64,000 bases of DNA, taken from positions 1-64,000 of the forward strand of contig PKXJ01000007.1 of the NCBI GenBank assembly GCA_003132305.1, given 5' to 3'. Both the position numbers and the translations under genes were made by a program. Positions 1,483 to 64,000 of the stretch are shown here, one piece after another. The notes under the pieces are model-generated. The model saw only the letters and a list, made by a program, of their open reading frames with translations. It was not told the DNA's origin and made no database searches. Position 1 is the stretch's first letter. Each line of letters begins with the position of its first letter. Origin of the DNA: Acidimicrobiaceae bacterium. Its GTDB lineage: Bacteria; Actinomycetota; Acidimicrobiia; Acidimicrobiales; RAAP-2.

Positions 1483-2862
1483 CTATGCGATTGGTTCGAA
1501 TTGGGCGGTGAAGTGGCGCAGGGCTTGCGGCTCTTGGACCATTCGATACCCAGGCAAGGAGGCAGCATCTTTGGCGACCGAAGTGACGACCTCAATCACA
1601 TAATCAATATGGCTCTGGGTATAGGTTCGCCGTGGAATCGCCAATCGGACTAACTCCATCGCGGCGGGCGTTTCCGTACCGTCAGGTTGACGGCCGAACA
1701 TCACTGTGCCAATTTCACAACTTCGAATACCACCCGCTTTGTAAAGGGCTACCGCGAGCGCTTGACCCGGATACTGCAGCGGAGCAATGTGACTGAGCAA
1801 CGCCTTGGCATCCACGTATACCGCATGGCCCCCAATGGGCTTCACGACGGGAACTCCGGCTGCGTCGAGTGCGTCGCCTAAATACGCGGTGGAGCGAATC
1901 CTGTAGCGCAAGTAGTCGGGTTGCACCGCTTCCTTCAGACCCTGAGCCAATGCTTCAAGGTCTCGCCCGGCCAACCCGCCATAGGTGGGAAAGCCTTCGG
2001 TCAAAATCAACATGCTGCGACACTTCTCGGCGAGATCATCATCGTTCAGGGCCAACCAACCACCAATGTTGCCAAACGGATCCTTCTTAGCGCTCATCGT
2101 CATACCATCGGCCAAGGATGCAATCTCTCGGACAATGTCGCTTATGTCTCTTTGCGATTGTCCCTCTTCGCGTTCATGGATGAACCATGCGTTTTCGGCA
2201 AATCGGCACGCGTCCAAGAAGAATGGAACGCCGTACCTTCGACAGATTTCACTCACGCCTCGAATATTGGCCAACGAGACAGGTTGTCCGCCCCCCGAGT
2301 TATTAGTTATGGTCAAGAAGACCACAGGGATAGTGGCCGCGCGCTCTTGGAGAAGAGTCTCGAGCGCACCGAGATCCATGTTCCCTTTGAAGGGGTGAAT
2401 CTTTGCCGCGTCGTGACCTTCAGGGATCACCAGATCTCGTGCCTCGGCGCCGGAGAATTCAACATTTGCCCGCGTCGTATCGAAATGGGTGTTGTTGGGA
2501 ACTAGCTTTCCCGGTCCACCAACGACCGAGAAGAGAATTCGCTCGGCGGCCCGGCCCTGATGAGTTGGAATAACGTGACGAAAAGGAAACAATTCCTTCA
2601 CGGCGGCTTCAAAACGAAACCACGACGGTGAACCTGCGTAGCTCTCGTCACCATGTTGAATGGCGGCCCACTGGTCACGAGACATTGCTCCAGTTCCAGA
2701 GTCAGTGAGCAGATCGATTAGAACATCTTCGGCGTGAAGGTTGAACAGGTTAAAGCCAGCATGTTCAATTGCGAAAGAACGCTCCTCTGCCGTGGTCATG
2801 CGTAACGGTTCGACCGAGTGAATTCTGAATGGTTCGATAATGGTAGTGAAAGGCTGGCTCAT
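1483..2862 (-). CDS. tnaA: tryptophanase (tryptophan indole-lyase)
   Basis: PLP-dependent beta-eliminating lyase that splits tryptophan into indole, pyruvate and ammonia. The 459 residues match the usual length. The family signature THQGRAAE is at 100-107, and the Schiff-base lysine lies in SAKKD (Lys260) followed by NIGG. EGFPTYGGLAGRD is at 289-301. The related tyrosine phenol-lyase carries Arg in its Met-Glu-Arg motif, which contacts the phenol; here the matching triplet is Cys-Glu-Ile (382-384), as in tryptophanases, so I call tnaA. No tnaC-type leader or tnaB permease is adjacent; the gene stands alone. ATG 2862 has no ribosome-binding site but has TACCAT six bases upstream. Confidence 0.88.
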   Translation of the reverse strand: MSQPFTTIIEPFRIHSVEPLRMTTAEERSFAIEHAGFNLFNLHAEDVLIDLLTDSGTGAMSRDQWAAIQHGDESYAGSPSWFRFEAAVKELFPFRHVIPTHQGRAAERILFSVVGGPGKLVPNNTHFDTTRANVEFSGAEARDLVIPEGHDAAKIHPFKGNMDLGALETLLQERAATIPVVFLTITNNSGGGQPVSLANIRGVSEICRRYGVPFFLDACRFAENAWFIHEREEGQSQRDISDIVREIASLADGMTMSAKKDPFGNIGGWLALNDDDLAEKCRSMLILTEGFPTYGGLAGRDLEALAQGLKEAVQPDYLRYRIRSTAYLGDALDAAGVPVVKPIGGHAVYVDAKALLSHIAPLQYPGQALAVALYKAGGIRSCEIGTVMFGRQPDGTETPAAMELVRLAIPRRTYTQSHIDYVIEVVTSVAKDAASLPGYRMVQEPQALRHFTAQFEPIA

Positions 2863-2868
2863 AGCCTG

Positions 2869-2874
2869 ATGGTA
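2869..2874 (-). promoter_or_regulatory. -10 element TACCAT, leaderless tnaA
   Basis: TACCAT ends six bases before ATG 2862 with no Shine-Dalgarno between, the same layout as at many other genes here. Confidence 0.5.
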
Positions 2875-3214
2875 CCGTCATTAGGCCATTCGTCGGAAAG
2901 CGGTAAGGGTCAGTCGCGTGCAACGGCGCCACCGAGTGATGTGCCCCGTCTTTCGTTCAGAGGAAAGCCTTTCAACCAATCTTCTTCAATCCACTCGCAG
3001 GTTGTGAACTAATGACGTCCGCTGTCCCTACCGGTCCATTTCCGTGGAAAATAGTGCGACAATCCATATTGTGAATGCCTACGTCGCGAGATTGACGTCA
3101 GGTGCAGTAGTCGCCGTCATCACGTGGTTCCTCAGTTATCGGTCCAATCAGCAACAATGGTGAGCCACTGCGCAAGAACCTGTCTCTGCACAGTTCCTAC
3201 TAACCATTAGCCGT
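2875..3214. other. intergenic stretch without a recognised gene
   Basis: About 340 bases between the tnaA promoter and a small minus-strand gene. No reading frame has both a start signal and protein-like composition, and no RNA fold was recognised. Confidence 0.4.
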
Positions 3215-3394
3215 TCAGCGAAAGTTGTAGCTTTGGCCGCGATGGTAGGAGTTAGGCAAAGTTTCGGGCGTCTTCGCCGTTCCTATCAACTCTCCCGGTT
3301 CAGCGCGGTAGACGCCGAGAGACTCGAACTGAAAACCATGTGCGGCGTCTCGAAGGGCCTCATCTAATAAACCCTCTGATTGCCGACGGGACAT
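3215..3394 (-). CDS. small hypothetical protein (59 aa)
   Basis: From ATG 3394 the minus strand reads 59 codons to TGA 3215-3217. The product contains LLDEALRDAAHGFQFESLG and ends in a polar Tyr/Asn/Arg tail. The central part is repeated in a degenerate inverted copy at 1315-1386, and the amino acid pattern is kept better than chance, which supports coding. The frame stays open upstream of the ATG, so the true start may be earlier or this may be the tail of an older, longer gene. No clear ribosome-binding site is seen. No family is recognised. Confidence 0.35.
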   Translation of the reverse strand: MSRRQSEGLLDEALRDAAHGFQFESLGVYRAEPGELIGTAKTPETLPNSYHRGQSYNFR

Positions 3395-3505
3395 ACCAGG
3401 TGACTCACGCAGGCGAGCCCCAGCGCCTTTTTGACGCGCACTGGAGACATTTCGAAGTGGGGGCGCCGAGTCTTGCGCACGCCCACGAGAGCTACGTCGC
3501 GTTGG

Positions 3506-6500
3506 CTACTGCTTGAGCGTTGTCACCGTGGCCTTATCGACGGCGACGGTCGTCACGCTCTTTATCGTCACGAGAACCGCGCCCCGGCTCCACAGGTAGT
3601 TGGCAATCGTCGTCGCACGACCCTGCGCGAGGGCCGTGTTGCCCATCGCGTAACCGGTGACGGTCACCGAGGCGCCGGCTCTCAACTGCTTGGCAAGTGC
3701 TTGTAGGGCTACCTTCGATCGGGCGCTCAGTGCGCTGCTCTTGGCTGTAAACAGCACCGTGACGACGGCGGGAAGAGCGCTCGAGACCTTGGGCGCGAAC
3801 GTAATGGTGGTGGCCGACGACGAGACCCTGAGATACGAGGCGTCTCCGGCCTTGGTCGCGATGACGACGCAAGTTCCGGCGCTCGTGGCGCGCAGTGAAC
3901 TACCGGAAATCTTGCAACCAGCCGCCGTGCCCTTGGCGGCGGCGAACGTCACCAAGCCACTACCCGAACCGCCGCTCGTTAGGAGGGTTAGGTACGAGCC
4001 CACGCGACCGTGGAGCGTGGTGATCGTGAGTGTCGACTGTACGCCAGGGGGAGGAGTGCCACTTCCGGTTGATGGCGGCGACGGAGGTGGAGGAGGTGGA
4101 GGAGGTGGAGGAGGCGGAGGAGGTGGAGGAGGCGCCGCCGGGGTAATCGAATTGGAGGCGGAGGAGGCGGGACCGGTACCCACAGAGTTGGTCGCCGTAA
4201 CGCTGAAGGAGTAGAGGTCACCGTTCGTGAGACCGGTCACCGTGCACGAGGTCGCGCCTGTCGTCGTGCAGGTCTGTCCACCGTGACTGCTGGTGGTTGC
4301 GTCGGCAGCGGTGACGTTGTAGGAAGTGATCACGCTGCCGCCATTCGAGGAGGGGACGCCCCAACCCGTCGTTCCTGAGGCGTCGCCAGCAACGGCAGTA
4401 GCGAGGTTCGGCGCGCCGGGAGCCGTCACGACGCCCGTGCCGGTCATCGTGACGGTTTGTACGCCGCTTCCGTCGTTGCCTTCCAAGAGCCAGGTTGCCG
4501 AGACGGGCCCGCTCGAAGTGGGCGTGAACTTCACGGACTCCTGAATCGACGTGTTAGGGGCGAGCTGTCCACCATCGGCGCCGAGTTGCGTAAACGGGTC
4601 GGTGAGCGCGGCGAAGCCGTTCGTTCCCGGCGGCGTGGACTTAGTGATCGTGAGCGGAAGGCCCCCTTGGTCGCCGAGGTCGAAGTTGATTGTTGCGGAG
4701 GAACCGAGCGCGACGTCACCAAAAGTGAGTGTTGTCGGGACGATATTAATTTGAGCGGCGGGATCGGCCGCTCCCGAGACCGGCACACCAAAGTCACCCA
4801 CGCTGGTATGAAGAGTCGCCACCCCGCCGAAAACGTTCTCGAAGTCGCCAGAAGATCCCGGCGGCGAGAAGGTCGCCGTGACGGTGATCGAGGCGCCCGC
4901 ACCCAGTAGCGTTCCGCTGGCGGGTGCACCAGTCACGGCGAAGGGCAACGCTGGAGCGCTGAAGCCGGTGATGGTAACGGCACTCGCGGAGACGTTCGTG
5001 AACGTGACGGGCTGGGACTGCGTTGAACCACCGATGGGCTGGTGACCGAAGTCCGCGACACCGGGCGTCACGCTCTGCGGTTCAGTCGCGCTGATCGGTT
5101 CAGTCGCGCTCAAACCATCGCCACCCAGCGTGAGCGCGGCGGTGCCACTGGTGACGTTGGCCACTAACGTTCCGGCATTCGCGCCAATGGCGTTCGGCGT
5201 GAAGGTGACCGGCACGGTAATCGACTGGCCCGCGGACAACGACGCGGGCAGTGTCTGGTCGGGGCCGCCCACGGTGAACGCGGAGCCGGTCTGGGTGAAT
5301 GACGACACGGTGGTCGACGTCGTTGCGGTGAACGTCGCCGTCTCATTGATCGACTGCGAGACGGTTGTTGGGGGGAAGTCGACGTTGTCACCGGTGAGTG
5401 CAGGCGTCGACGACGACAAGAGACCGAAACCGAGGAGCGTGCCGTCTTTGGTGCCCACGTAGATGATCCCGTTGTCGACGCCGGGCTCAGAAAACTTCGA
5501 GGAAGTGAAGGTCGGAGAGTTCCACACGTCTTGGAGGGTCCCGTTCGGACCGGGGTTCTGAGGTATCGGATTATAGGCTTGGAGCTGGGCACCAGTCCCA
5601 CTCAAATTGCCGTCGTGGATGATCCAGAGCAGCGAAGAGCCCGAAGTGGTGCCGTTCGAAGTGACTATTGGTTTACCGGAGCCAAAGCTAAACGTGTTAC
5701 CGGAGTTCGTCGTGGCGCCGACGCGCTGGAAGTACACGGCCCCCGAGGCGCTGACCATTCGCTGGAATACGTTGAGAGACCCGGCGTTCATCTGAAAACC
5801 AACCGTCGCGGCCGTTGGTATGTAGACGTACCCGCCGTCACCGGGCCAAACCGTCGGCTTTGACCACACGCCGCCGTACGGGCCAGTCTCGGAGGGGACG
5901 GCGTCGCTTCCGAGCGGACCGTGTTGGTATCCCCCCAAGGCGTTCATGTTGAGGGCGTAGATGATGCCCTCCTTGCCCACGTCCAGAAGGACGTGGGGCT
6001 CCTGCGGCGTTCCCATGCTCGCCGGCAGGGCGACGGGGCCTCCCGAGCCGAGATCGCCGTCCACGACATTAAGCGTTTTCGCGTCCGAAGGGATGAAAAA
6101 GTTGACCGGATGCAGTGTGCCACTGGACGTGCTGAGCTCGACGACCGCCTCGCCGAAGTTGTGCACCGAGGTGTCGGTACCCGACTTGGGACTCGAAGGT
6201 ATGTCACCGTTGCCGGTCGCGACGTAGATGTTTCCTTGAGCATCGACCACCGGCGCCGAGCCCGACTGCCAGATGCCGCCACCGGGATGAAGGGGGGGCG
6301 GGTTGACGACACCGGTCTCGCTCGACCACATGGTCGTAATGGCGGCCGAGGTTTCGGACACCCCAATGACCCAACCCTGCCAACTGCCATAGTCACACTG
6401 GGAGCCGAAGGCGGCGTAGACGACCCCATTCACGAGCACCAGTCCCGGGCGCTGGGTCTGATATTGGCCATTAAAGACCGTGCCGGGGTCGCCGTCGGCG

Positions 6501-59818: not shown

Positions 59819-60520
59819 GTGAGCGAACTCGCCAGCACCCCGCACCACCGCCAGATCAGTGGCGGCGGCTTTCGCGCGGCCCTCTTTGGCCTCATGGACG
59901 GACTGGTCACGAACGTCTCGCTCATCCTCGGCTTCGCCGGCGCCAATCCTGGCCACAACATAATTCGCCTCGCCGGACTCGCGGGACTGGTGGCGGGCGC
60001 CTTTTCGATGGGCAGTGGCGAGTACCTCTCGATGCGGGCACAAAAGGAGCTCTACGGGTACGAGATTGACGTGGAACGTCGCTCGCTCCAAGACGATCCC
60101 GACTTGGAGCGTGAAGAGCTTCGCGACATATTCCTCGGGCGCGGTATCGACGCCGATCTCGCCGATCGACTCTCGACCGACTTGATGCGAGACCCCGATC
60201 TCGCGCTTCGCACGCACACGCGCGAAGAGCTCGGCATCGACCCCTCGGCGACGGGATCACCCTGGATCGCGGCGTTCTCGTCCTTCCTCTTCTTCTCGGT
60301 CGGCGCGTTCATACCCTTACTGCCGTGGATTGTCATCTCGACGGGCAACGTCATATGGTGGTCCGTGGGCCTGGCTGGCGCTTCGATACTTTTCGTTGGC
60401 GCCGCGGTCGGTCACTTTACAAGGCGCGGCATCATCTACTCGGCCCTGCGAGCGTTGATCATCATGTCGCTCGCCTCGGCCGTTACTTTTGGCGTGGGCT
60501 ATCTCGTGGGCGTTCAGTAA
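59819..60520 (+). CDS. VIT1/CCC1 family iron/manganese transporter
   Basis: 233 residues with five membrane segments. FRAALFGLMDGLVTNVSLILGFAGA is the metal-site first helix and AGAFSMGSGEYLSMRAQKELY the second; a cytosolic Glu/Asp-rich linker (DLEREELRDIFLGRG) follows. Plant and yeast members move Fe2+ or Mn2+ into vacuoles; bacterial ones would export these ions across the plasma membrane. Its end overlaps the convergent mshD by seven bases. Confidence 0.85.
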   Translation: MSELASTPHHRQISGGGFRAALFGLMDGLVTNVSLILGFAGANPGHNIIRLAGLAGLVAGAFSMGSGEYLSMRAQKELYGYEIDVERRSLQDDPDLEREELRDIFLGRGIDADLADRLSTDLMRDPDLALRTHTREELGIDPSATGSPWIAAFSSFLFFSVGAFIPLLPWIVISTGNVIWWSVGLAGASILFVGAAVGHFTRRGIIYSALRALIIMSLASAVTFGVGYLVGVQ

Positions 60521-61362
60521 TTGCGAGAAAAGCGAACGAGTCGATCTTCTCGTTCGAGACGAAAACCGAGCGAATCGTAGAGTTTCTTGGCGGCGTCGTT
60601 GGACTCGTCCACGAAGAGCACGGCGTCCATGACGCCCTTTCGAAACAGGACGTTTAGGCCCTGGGTCACCATGACGCGTCCGAGATGGTGGCGCTGAAAG
60701 TCCGGATGAACCGAGACCACGTAGATCTCACCGAAGCGGTCGGGGTGAAGTTCGTGGACCTTGGTCCAACACGACGCCGCGATTCGCCCGTCGATCTCTA
60801 GGAGCAGGAACCCCGAGGGGTCGAACCAGGGTTCGTTCGTTCGCTCGTCGAGGTCGTGTTGGTGCCACGCGCCTTGTTCGGGATGGTTCGCGAAGGCGGC
60901 ATTGTTCTGTTCGAGCCACGCGCCCTCGTCACGACGGGTTTCAAAGTTGCGCAGGACGGCACCGGGCGGGACGTCGTCGACGGGCACCGGCAGTTTGACG
61001 CGGAGCATCTGCAACATGCGTATGACGGTGCAGTGGGCGTACTCACAGGACTGGGGACCACGGGTCCACCAGTCGACGACTTCGTGCGCCGCGAGAAGGT
61101 GCGCGAGGAGCTCTTCGTCGTAGTCGCCCCCGCACATCTCCACGATGGCGTGTTCGTCGCCGCTCGACATGGCGTACTTGGTCAGGACGCCTTCGTCGTA
61201 GTAGAGCCAGTGTTGCGCGCGCCAGCCGTGCACGACCGCGCGACGACGGCCTTCATCGATCGCTTCGCGTCCTAGCAACGCCTCCGACCGATTGAGCAGG
61301 CTCAGTACGTCGAGGCGCTGTTGTGGCGACAACGAAAGCACGCACCGCCACGGAGAAGCCAT
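60514..61362 (-). CDS. mshD: mycothiol acetyltransferase (mycothiol synthase)
   Basis: Acetylates the cysteine amino group in the last step of mycothiol synthesis. 282 residues with two GNAT domains, the second well formed: NNAAFANHPEQGAWHQHDLDER, NEPWFDPSGFLLLEID, GEIYVVSVHPDFQRHHLGRVMV (acetyl-CoA loop) and AKKLYDSLGFRLE. The first GNAT half is degraded, as in known MshD. With mshC at 16504 it supports a complete pathway elsewhere in the genome. TAGTGT lies six bases before ATG 61362. Confidence 0.88.
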   Translation of the reverse strand: MASPWRCVLSLSPQQRLDVLSLLNRSEALLGREAIDEGRRRAVVHGWRAQHWLYYDEGVLTKYAMSSGDEHAIVEMCGGDYDEELLAHLLAAHEVVDWWTRGPQSCEYAHCTVIRMLQMLRVKLPVPVDDVPPGAVLRNFETRRDEGAWLEQNNAAFANHPEQGAWHQHDLDERTNEPWFDPSGFLLLEIDGRIAASCWTKVHELHPDRFGEIYVVSVHPDFQRHHLGRVMVTQGLNVLFRKGVMDAVLFVDESNDAAKKLYDSLGFRLEREDRLVRFSRNY

Positions 61363-61630: not shown

Positions 61631-62329
61631 ATGAGTACGACTGGAAACGACACCACCACGCACACGCTGGCGTGGTCGGTGCTGAAGGCCCGCGGCCCCG
61701 AGACGGAGTCCTTCCTCCAGGGCCAGCTCAGCCAGGATCTGGCCCTGGTCAGTGGGACCGGTGCTTGGGCCCTCATCCTCGAGCCCGACAGCGTCGTCAT
61801 GACGAGCTGTTTCGTGCAACGGCGTGAGGACGGCTTTGACGTGATCGTGCCCAGAGAACTGGCCGAGGTCGCGGCGAAGCGACTGAAGCGATTCCTCCTT
61901 CGCACGAAGTGCACCATCGAAGTCGAAGAGGTCGACGACGGACCCTTCGCCACGCTGGACGAGCAGATCCGCGCCAACTGGCCGGGCGTGCGCGAATTCG
62001 CGTTGGCCCTCACGCCGCACAGCTTTGGCCGATCGTTCGTGGCGGCCACGATCTCCTTTCAAAAGGGCTGTTTCACCGGTCAAGAGTTGGTCGGACGACT
62101 CGACGCTCGGGGCTCGAGCGTGCCGTGGCGATTCGTGCACGTGCGTGGCGCCAACTCCGCGATCGTCGACAAGTACTTGAAGTCGAAGGGCCCCGCGGGT
62201 CCCCAGGGCGTGACGAGTGCGTGGATGACGAACGGTCGCCTCGAAGGGTTGGGCGTCGCGCACCGCACGCTGCTCGGCGCGACCAGTGACCAAACTGACA
62301 ACGACGTCAGCGTTGAAGAGGTTGACTGA
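61631..62329 (+). CDS. ygfZ: folate-binding protein YgfZ
   Basis: 232 residues related to the GcvT T-protein. The family signature K-G-C-[YF]-x-G-Q-E is present as KGCFTGQE with its reactive Cys. The N-terminal region (ETESFLQGQLSQDL) aligns with the GcvT fold. YgfZ helps assemble or repair certain iron-sulfur enzymes in a folate-dependent way. The protein is shorter than E. coli YgfZ (326) but the core is intact. Confidence 0.87.
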   Translation: MSTTGNDTTTHTLAWSVLKARGPETESFLQGQLSQDLALVSGTGAWALILEPDSVVMTSCFVQRREDGFDVIVPRELAEVAAKRLKRFLLRTKCTIEVEEVDDGPFATLDEQIRANWPGVREFALALTPHSFGRSFVAATISFQKGCFTGQELVGRLDARGSSVPWRFVHVRGANSAIVDKYLKSKGPAGPQGVTSAWMTNGRLEGLGVAHRTLLGATSDQTDNDVSVEEVD

Positions 62330-62375
62330 GTCGATTCGTCTTGCGTGAGTAACGTACCAATCATGGAGATAGTAC

Positions 62376-63035
62376 GTGCGACTCACGGCTGAGGGCCTCT
62401 ACATCAAGATCTCAGGGATCACCTCGGAGGACGACGCGCTGTTTTCCATTGGCCTTGGCGCCAGCGCCGTCGGCTTCGATTTTGCGTTGACGTCCCGTCA
62501 GATCTCGGTGAGCGCGGCGCACGACATCGTTCGTCGACTTCCCCAAGGCGCGGGGTCCGTCGGCGTGTTTCGAAACGAACTGCCCCAGCGAATCGTCGAG
62601 ATCGCCAACACGCTCGGACTCAGCGCCGTGCAGATCGACGGCCCCATCACGGCCGACGAGCTCAGTTACGTTACCGAGCGGGTGAACACGGTCTTGCGAA
62701 TGGTTCCCGACGGCACGGAGCGCCTCGGACTAGCGAACGGGGTCGACTGCCTGGTGCTTCCCGAGAGCGACGAACCCGAGGCGCTCGTAGACTCACTCGA
62801 ACTCTTCCTGGAGTCGAGTCCGCGCGTCCCGGTGATCGCGTCGGGCGGCCTGAACGCCTCGAACGTCGTTGACGTCGTACAGAACTTTCCAGTCTTTGGC
62901 GTGGACGTGCGCTCGGGGGTCGAGAGCGCGCCCGGCGTGAAGGACCCGGTGATGCTCGGGGAGTTCATCGCCAACGCGCGCTGGGCGTACGACAACACGT
63001 ACGTGGAGCGCCACTTCGATGAGTGGACGTTGTAG
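62376..63035 (+). CDS. TrpF-like (phosphoribosylanthranilate isomerase fold) protein with altered active site
   Basis: 219 residues with the TrpF barrel pattern: YIKISGITSEDDA, GFDFALTSRQIS, GLSAVQIDGP, VPVIASGGLNASNVVDVV and FGVDVRSGVESAPGVKDP. In PRA isomerases the general base is Cys in KICG, a His follows in VQLHG and the general acid is Asp in the next strand. Here these are Ser13, Asp89 and Pro129, while the phosphate-site SR and GVE motifs are kept. It is therefore unlikely to be a standard TrpF. Actinobacteria commonly use PriA for this step, so the copy could be free to change. GTG 62376 has GGAG upstream. Confidence 0.7.
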   Translation: MRLTAEGLYIKISGITSEDDALFSIGLGASAVGFDFALTSRQISVSAAHDIVRRLPQGAGSVGVFRNELPQRIVEIANTLGLSAVQIDGPITADELSYVTERVNTVLRMVPDGTERLGLANGVDCLVLPESDEPEALVDSLELFLESSPRVPVIASGGLNASNVVDVVQNFPVFGVDVRSGVESAPGVKDPVMLGEFIANARWAYDNTYVERHFDEWTL

Positions 63036-64000
63036 CTAGCCGTGAAAGCGTCGAAAGATGACGCTGCCGTTGTGACCACCGAAACCAAAGGAGTTGGACA
63101 GAACTATCTCCACGTCGGCCGGGCGCGAGGCGCCGATCACCACGTCGAGGGCGATCGCGGGATCGATATCGGTCGTGCCAGCGGTCGGGGGGATGAGCTG
63201 GTTTTGCAGCGTCAGCACTGACGCGACGCCCTCGAGCGCACCGGCGGCCGCGAGAGAGTGACCGAGGTGACCCTTGTTGGAAGTGGTCGGTGGCGCGTCG
63301 TCGCCAAAGACGCGGTGTACCGCGATGGCTTCGGCGAGATCGTTCAACGGCGTCGAGGTACCGTGCGCGTTGATGTGCGAGACGTCGCTCGCGGTGATGT
63401 CCGCGTCGGCGAGGGCCAGCTCCATGCAACGAATCGCGCCGGCCCCGCTCGGGTCGGGCGCCGTGATGTGGTAAGCGTCCGCCGTCGACGCCGCGCCGAG
63501 AACCTCGGCGAAGATCGGCACGCCCCGACGGAGGGCGTGGTCCCACTCTTCGAGGATCAGGACGCCGGCGCCTTCACCCAAGACGAAGCCGTCTCGATTG
63601 ACGTCAAAGGGGCGAGAGAGGTTCTGCGTGGAGAGCGCCGTCATGTTGCGAAAGCCCGCCTCGGCAATCTCGACGATGACGGCTTCGGCGCCGCCCGCGA
63701 CGACCACGTCACAGCGACCCGACGCCACGAGGCGAGCGGCGTTGCCAATGGCGTGCGTGCCGGCCGCGCACGCGGTCGTCACCGTTTCACACGGTCCGCC
63801 CAGGCCAAAGCGCATGGAGACGGCGGCGGTCGCGGCGTTGGGCATCATCATCGGCACGAGAAAGGGCGAGACCCGTTCGGGACCCTTTTGCAAGAGCACG
63901 ACGCCTTGATTCAGCGTCGACTGAAGACCGCCGATGCCGGTCGTGACGATGCTGCCGGCGTCGGGGAGAGGGCCGACAAGACCACTCTGGCGCCAGGCCT
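63036..64000 (-). CDS. fabF: beta-ketoacyl-ACP synthase II (5' end outside window)
   Basis: The frame is open to the right edge, giving 320 C-terminal codons of a KAS II-type condensing enzyme; the N-terminus lies beyond 64000. The catalytic Cys is in TTACAAGTHAIGNA, the two His in INAHGTSTPLND and NKGHLGHSLAAAGALEG, and RPFDVNRDGFVLGEGAG and SNSFGFGGHN are conserved. It elongates fatty acids and may be functionally linked with fabI at 15031. It converges on the TrpF-like gene with no gap. Confidence 0.93.
   Translation of the reverse strand, partial: AWRQSGLVGPLPDAGSIVTTGIGGLQSTLNQGVVLLQKGPERVSPFLVPMMMPNAATAAVSMRFGLGGPCETVTTACAAGTHAIGNAARLVASGRCDVVVAGGAEAVIVEIAEAGFRNMTALSTQNLSRPFDVNRDGFVLGEGAGVLILEEWDHALRRGVPIFAEVLGAASTADAYHITAPDPSGAGAIRCMELALADADITASDVSHINAHGTSTPLNDLAEAIAVHRVFGDDAPPTTSNKGHLGHSLAAAGALEGVASVLTLQNQLIPPTAGTTDIDPAIALDVVIGASRPADVEIVLSNSFGFGGHNGSVIFRRFHG

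Follow-up and report, generated by a model that had tools for sequence, protein, structure and literature searches.

The stretch of 64,000 nucleotides analysed here (hereafter the window), from contig PKXJ01000007.1 of an Acidimicrobiaceae bacterium (GenBank assembly GCA_003132305.1), poses a testable question, namely what preserves an enzyme barrel once its chemistry is gone. TrpF, the phosphoribosylanthranilate isomerase (PRAI), is a standard model of barrel evolution, and a gene between ygfZ-like and fabF-like neighbours in the window (hereafter the orphan) encodes a protein of this fold with a disarmed active site. The features of the locus are collected in Table 1.

Table 1. Features of the orphan locus in the window.
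Feature	Position	Strand	Basis
VIT1 family gene	59819..60520	+	Pfam; flank common to the window and L187
Mycothiol-synthase-like GNAT gene (mshD)	60514..61362	-	profile match; homologue adjoins trpE in L187
ygfZ-like gene, ends 46 bp 5' of the orphan	61631..62329	+	NCBIfam YgfZ models, scores below cut-offs
Shine-Dalgarno-like GGAG, 7 nt 5' of the orphan GTG	62365..62368	+	direct reading
Orphan gene of the TrpF fold (219 aa) with a disarmed active site; start GTG at 62376, stop ends at 63035	62376..63035	+	ORF, Pfam, residue alignment, AlphaFold2, Foldseek
Codon of Ser13, replacing the catalytic Cys (T. maritima Cys7)	62412..62414	+	alignment
Codon of Asp88, replacing the active-site His (T. 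maritima His83)	62637..62639	+	alignment
Codon of Pro129, replacing the general acid Asp (T. maritima Asp126); Glu130 next	62760..62762	+	alignment
fabF-like ketoacyl-ACP synthase gene, convergent, cut by the window end	63036..63998	-	Pfam, synteny

A TrpF fold with changed catalytic residues

The orphan product matches the Pfam PRAI profile (PF00697) over the whole length with 77.7 bits against a cut-off of 22.7, and the Pfam search with E values up to 0.01 returned PRAI only, without the HisA/PriA profile (PF00977). It scores below the NCBIfam PRAI cut-offs, which is uninformative because the canonical TrpF of the same genome does likewise. An AlphaFold2 model built with 16 sequences displays a full-length TrpF fold (pLDDT 86.7, pTM 0.87); the top PDB matches of this model in Foldseek (1lbm, 1nsj, 1dl3, and 1v5x) are all TrpF, and the 12 highest-ranked PDB entries are structures of TrpF or of TrpC-TrpF.

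The catalytic positions were read by alignment to the TrpF of T. maritima, whose Cys7, His83, and Asp126 we take to be the catalytic residues, with Asp126 as the general acid. All three are changed in the window orphan, and the preliminary description of a TrpF fold with three altered catalytic residues is borne out by the alignment, Pfam, AlphaFold2, and Foldseek. Its numbers for Ser13 and Pro129 were correct, while the changed His corresponds to Asp88 instead of the proposed Asp89, residue 89 being Gly. Among 61 orphan rows from 60 genomes (the window's own is entered twice, one row is a partial gene, and 59 are full-length), Cys is kept in none, His in 2, and Asp in 4; the Asp-keeping rows (L038, L039, L041, and L042) are close relatives without Cys and His. 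Sequencing error, chance, or contamination as the cause was rejected, since the same losses recur across these rows and genomes. All three residues are kept in 79 of 81 cluster TrpF rows, which have trpC or trpB adjoining and include the window's own genome twice. The P-G-S-G substrate loop that follows the general acid is absent from the window orphan, where it is replaced; cluster TrpFs have P in 80/80, G in 80/80, S in 79/80, and G in 80/80.

The claim that the phosphate-binding motifs remain holds only in part, as the motif DVSSGVE reads DVRSGVE in the window orphan. Across the full-length orphans, Gly157 is present in 53/59 and Gly158 in 54/59, and the first Ser/Ala of the second phosphate motif is replaced by Arg179 in 47/59. 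Ser occupies position 13 in 53/59 and Pro occupies position 129 in 55/59, whereas position 88 holds Asp (29), Glu (12), or another residue (18). Thus, the suggested Ser/Asp/Pro group forms a clade of its own, as described below, without being strictly Ser/Asp/Pro. Fifty of the 59, hereafter the core orphans, share an acidic residue 130 (Glu/Asp), Asp132, Arg108, and Gly158 (50/50 each) together with Ser13 (48/50), Arg179 (47/50), and Gly157 (47/50). The nine divergent orphans miss parts of this catalytic-face residue set.

Two cluster TrpFs carry single changes: in L076 (G134), Asp replaces the catalytic Cys (KIDGVT), and in L074 (G097), Gln replaces the active-site His (QLQG). Both are sisters of the orphans and each is the sole TrpF found in its genome, so that one such change does not necessarily abolish TrpF activity.

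The former site of the trp cluster

The gene order in the window is VIT1, mshD, ygfZ, orphan trpF, and fabF. For two loci of relatives, every gene was annotated. The order in L187 (G028) is VIT1, mshD, trpE, ygfZ, trpC, trpF, trpB, and trpA, then fabF (L072), with ygfZ located by tblastn and no Pfam match there; in L184 (G163) it is trpE, ygfZ, trpC, trpF, trpB, trpA, and fabF. The fabF homologue is the downstream border of the old trp cluster. In the ancestral cluster, ygfZ lies inside, between trpE and trpC (L184:1484-8266; L187:3515-9256). The mshD product of the window scores 160.6 bits, just below the curated mycothiol-synthase cut-off of 163.1.

Within the stretches taken, many of them short or ended by a contig, the 32 cluster TrpF loci that lie at the old site or belong to other genera of the family have ygfZ in 23, fabF in 21, and both in 16 cases, and 0 of 49 relocated trpF loci (one locus duplicate) have ygfZ or fabF nearby. 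Of the orphan loci, 57/59 have a codirectional ygfZ as the immediate upstream neighbour and 56/59 a convergent fabF downstream, in two of the 56 at 512 and 861 bp from the orphan; L016, L017, and L018 are without fabF in the 1.5-kb stretch. An IS605/TnpB-type transposase gene (2209-3573) stands upstream of the intact orphan in L022 (G133), where close relatives have ygfZ, and a 709-aa ORF without a Pfam match takes the place of ygfZ upstream of the intact orphan in L086 (G099). The gene had been described as flanked by ygfZ and fabF instead of standing among trp genes; the first part is correct, and the second has to be revised, for synteny identifies this place as the former site of the trp cluster. 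Because relatives hold the trp cluster between the same flanks (L184 and L187), the orphan is most simply explained as the original trpF, left with ygfZ after trpE, trpC, trpB, and trpA moved.

The source genome (2.9 Mb, 35 contigs, 95% complete) contains a second PRAI gene, a canonical TrpF within a trpC-trpF-trpB-trpA cluster (G000:C23). A trpD-like (PF00591) gene adjoins this relocated cluster, and a trpE-like gene is on another contig. The orphan is spare because of this canonical TrpF, and not owing to a dual-function PriA as had been supposed. The HisA/PriA-type protein of the genome scores 160.5 bits with HisA and 99.8 bits with PriA, both below the curated cut-offs, and judged by these scores its gene is predicted to be HisA-like, not PriA-like. 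Its homologue in Acidimicrobium ferrooxidans is named HisA in the available part of PMC4462073. PriA covering for TrpF was therefore rejected, given the HisA-like gene and the canonical TrpF. The relocated TrpF (L001:1465-2103 and relatives) is itself fast-evolving, yet keeps Cys, His, and Asp; its mean distance is 0.93 against 0.23 for TrpB in 29 genomes.

Descent and distribution

In a quick tree of 139 rows, the 59 orphans fall on one side of a single branch (SH-aLRT 100), with long branches above L038/L039/L041/L042 and above L040/L045. In a careful tree of 59 chosen rows, 20 orphans form one clade (support 100/100), and their nearest relatives are the old-site cluster TrpFs of G117, G028, G097, and G134 (95/88). 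The FabF tree agrees in outline, with a conflict at G117, which falls among the orphan genomes. The FabF of G117 (L075) groups inside these genomes and its TrpF is canonical and at the old site, so recombination at the locus is possible. G062 and G102 are also nested within the orphan genomes in the FabF tree, and the orphan was thus probably lost there secondarily; in both (L180 and L181), ygfZ and fabF nearly abut and the orphan is cleanly deleted.

Both synteny and the tree group the orphan with the old-site TrpFs, and its horizontal acquisition was rejected on this ground. For the relocated cluster, horizontal acquisition is unsupported as far as TrpB is concerned, which groups with the genus; the TrpB L068, from another genus, falls among these sequences and was flagged as a long branch. 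The relocated TrpF is placed beside G009/G088, perhaps through long-branch pull, and monophyly of the orphan, its four sisters, and the relocated TrpF was not rejected (p-AU 0.252).

Among the 99 genomes searched in the genus, 85 are inferred to carry the orphan, 82 on the strength of at least two matches, and G114, G162, and G170 by reading. The orphans read comprise 59 full-length genes from 59 genomes and those of G100, G162 (partial), and G170. Eleven genomes lack the orphan and possess the old-site cluster (G009, G028, G056, G072, G078, G088, G097, G110, G117, G134, and G163). In three of the 99 genomes (G062, G102, and G129), the relocated TrpF is present and the orphan was not found; ygfZ was not found in G129 either. 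In G114 and G170, which are 86% and 70% complete, the orphan is the sole TrpF-fold gene found.

The 14 named orphan records (L148-L161), all MAGs, are titled Acidimicrobiaceae in seven cases (L148-L151, L153, L155, and L156), Acidimicrobiales in one (L152), Actinomycetes in two (L154 and L158), Acidobacteriota in one (L157), and uncultured actinobacterium in three (L159-L161); L162 is a canonical TrpF from an Acidimicrobiia MAG. In a search that covered 298 genomes of the order, among them those of the genus itself, the best three TrpFs from outside the genus (L168-L170) are canonical, and the orphan may also occur elsewhere in the order, where some genomes, such as G217, G260, and G273, have two matches. 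All 27 records of a plasmid search have less than 60% identity, and no orphan occurs among the best 20 of the 27.

Selection and the conserved face of the barrel

The orphan is under strong purifying selection, as supported by several comparisons. In 69 of 70 close pairs (at least about 80% identity), dN/dS is 0.025-0.225 by simple Nei-Gojobori counts with dS often near or above 1, and one pair was not computable. None of the 59 full-length orphans has an internal stop. Across the 36 genomes that yielded a reading of each copy, 596 of 630 pairs show higher conservation in the orphan than in the relocated TrpF, with mean pairwise identities of 0.59 and 0.47, respectively. Its dN is lower than that of TrpF in 51 of 52 close pairs, the exception being G075-G139; these pairs were picked by orphan identity, which favours a low orphan dN.

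Sites were allotted manually to the catalytic or the opposite face on the basis of the predicted secondary structure, and adjacent sites are not independent of one another. Mean pairwise identities on the catalytic and opposite faces are 0.54 and 0.66 in the orphans (59 rows), against 0.70 and 0.44 in the old-site and family cluster TrpFs (32 rows) and 0.61 and 0.41 in the relocated TrpFs (48 rows). In matched genomes the face difference between the two proteins is 0.31, a value reached by 0 of 20,000 permutations of the labels. With the seven key sites removed, permuted face labels reach the difference in 1 of 20,000, and when the comparison is restricted to the core orphans and the 32 cluster TrpFs, in 0 of 20,000. 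The catalytic face minus the opposite face gives -0.08 for the core orphans and +0.26 for the old-site and family cluster TrpFs. These results support a flip of conservation from the catalytic face to the opposite barrel face.

The largest conservation gains in the orphan include L22, P56, T105, L82, Y98, G81, L55, E101, R54, and R102. The best-kept loops of the opposite face are alpha2-beta3 (R54-L55-P56-x-G58), alpha3-beta4 (N78-x-L80-G81-L82), and alpha4-beta5 (Y98-E101-R102-V103-T105), with R54-L55-P56 invariant and G58 near-invariant (56/59). Among the differences between 1lbm and the monomeric T. maritima variant 1dl3 is one in the stretch aligned to residues 57-60. By analogy with this change beside R54-L55-P56, it is suggested that R54-L55-P56 and G58 belong to a contact surface.

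Possible roles of the orphan

The history of the locus may be summarized in a path that synteny and trees support. The original trpF stayed in place; trpC, trpB, and trpA are now found at a different site together with another, canonical trpF, and trpE is on a further contig. The data also support the loss of Cys, His, Asp, and the substrate loop in the stem of one orphan clade, strong purifying selection on the orphan ever since, and the best conservation today on the barrel face opposite the active site. The orphan presumably no longer isomerises phosphoribosylanthranilate and would be a pseudoenzyme, a folded barrel that binds itself or another protein via the opposite face. The partly kept phosphate site (Gly157-Gly158, Asp177, Arg179, and Glu183) may bind a phosphorylated ligand in many members, and such a ligand would tune the partner contact.

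The presumed loss of the TrpF chemistry together with the constraint on the opposite side fits a partner-binding pseudoenzyme, and the orphan is an enzyme homologue that has lost catalytic residues and is kept by selection. Against it stand the new shared catalytic-face residues in 50/59, which resemble what a new active site would show, the single changes in the sister TrpFs, the clean deletion in G062 and G102, and the partner test described below, in which no pair with the orphan stood out from the controls. We put a single neofunctionalisation to a pseudoenzyme working via its non-catalytic face at about an even chance. The fuller account, of a TrpF barrel stranded by an operon move that became a pseudoenzyme with its working side opposite the active site, guarded more tightly than the working TrpF, is held somewhat more tentatively, at a little under even.

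The main rival is a new enzyme acting on a phosphorylated substrate, with an active site of Ser13, Asp/Glu88, Arg108, Glu/Asp130, Asp132, and Arg179. Such an enzyme would account for the residue set common to the 50 core orphans and for the purifying selection; however, the core orphans too have a catalytic face less conserved than the opposite one (-0.08, vs +0.26 in the old-site and family cluster TrpFs), parts of the set are missing in the nine divergent orphans, and position 88 is variable (Asp in 29, Glu in 12, others in at least 10). This explanation is a serious possibility, at roughly a third. A back-up TrpF that still isomerises phosphoribosylanthranilate by a changed mechanism is unlikely. 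Although the fold and part of the phosphate site are kept, the sister sole TrpFs L076 and L074 do without Cys or His, and the orphan is the sole TrpF-fold gene found in G114 and G170, these two genomes are incomplete (86% and 70%), Cys, His, general acid, and substrate loop were lost together in the clade, and a canonical TrpF is present in the same genome.

Slightly less likely still is a structural partner specific to YgfZ and made from one message. The upstream, codirectional ygfZ in 57/59 loci, 46 bp away in the window, speaks for such a partner, but this neighbourhood was inherited from the old trp cluster, the orphan is intact where a TnpB/IS605-type gene (L022) or the 709-aa ORF (L086) intervenes, and G062 and G102 keep ygfZ without the orphan. 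The partner test, by partial correlations of distance matrices in 29 genomes given FabF and TrpB, yielded 0.50 for orphan-TrpF (0 of 2,000 permutations), 0.32 for orphan-YgfZ (5), 0.32 for orphan-MshD (9), and 0.19 for orphan-TrpC (51), so that YgfZ equals MshD. The control pairs TrpF-YgfZ (0.59), TrpF-MshD (0.55), and YgfZ-MshD (0.66) are higher, and co-evolution of the orphan with a partner does not stand out from the controls in these 29 genomes. The least probable reading is a decaying relic heading for deletion that survived by chance: the clean deletion in G062 and G102 and the long branches above L038/L039/L041/L042 and L040/L045 would suit it, but it is contradicted by the dN/dS of 0.025-0.225, the 0/59 internal stops, and the 596/630 pairs.

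Relation to known barrels and meaning

The orphan resembles TrpF (PRAI, PF00697) in fold, profile match, descent, the GG of beta-strand 7, and the SGVE of beta-strand 8, and differs from it in lacking the catalytic Cys/His/Asp and the PGSG loop, in conservation on the opposite face, and in having no adjoining trpC or trpB. The TrpF of Jonesia denitrificans (PDB 4wui), an actinobacterial structural match to the orphan, has 26% identity and, unlike the orphan, intact KVCG, QLHG, and SSGVE motifs. According to the parts available of PMC13055916, PriA, SubHisA, SubTrpF, and AdeK of Actinomycetota are likewise phosphoribosyl-isomerase barrels whose function changed after gene gain, loss, or expansion; these are complementation-tested members of the HisA/PriA family, whereas the orphan belongs to the TrpF family and has lost catalytic residues. 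The same parts treat TrpF in Streptosporangiaceae, and functional shifts of HisA-family barrels are treated there and in the available part of PMC4462073. Wording on catalytic residues was not found in the accessible portions of PMC4732765 and PMC7591586, and neither a TrpF pseudoenzyme nor an acidimicrobial trpF paralogue was found among the open-licence papers listed.

The annotation "phosphoribosylanthranilate isomerase" is probably wrong for the orphan clade. The locus offers a probable natural loss of catalysis that can be set against close catalytic relatives in the same position, a working paralogue that serves as a control within the cell, and a measurable shift of constraint. If the pseudoenzyme reading is true, the orphan would be a natural example of an enzyme that has been turned round to serve as a binding protein.
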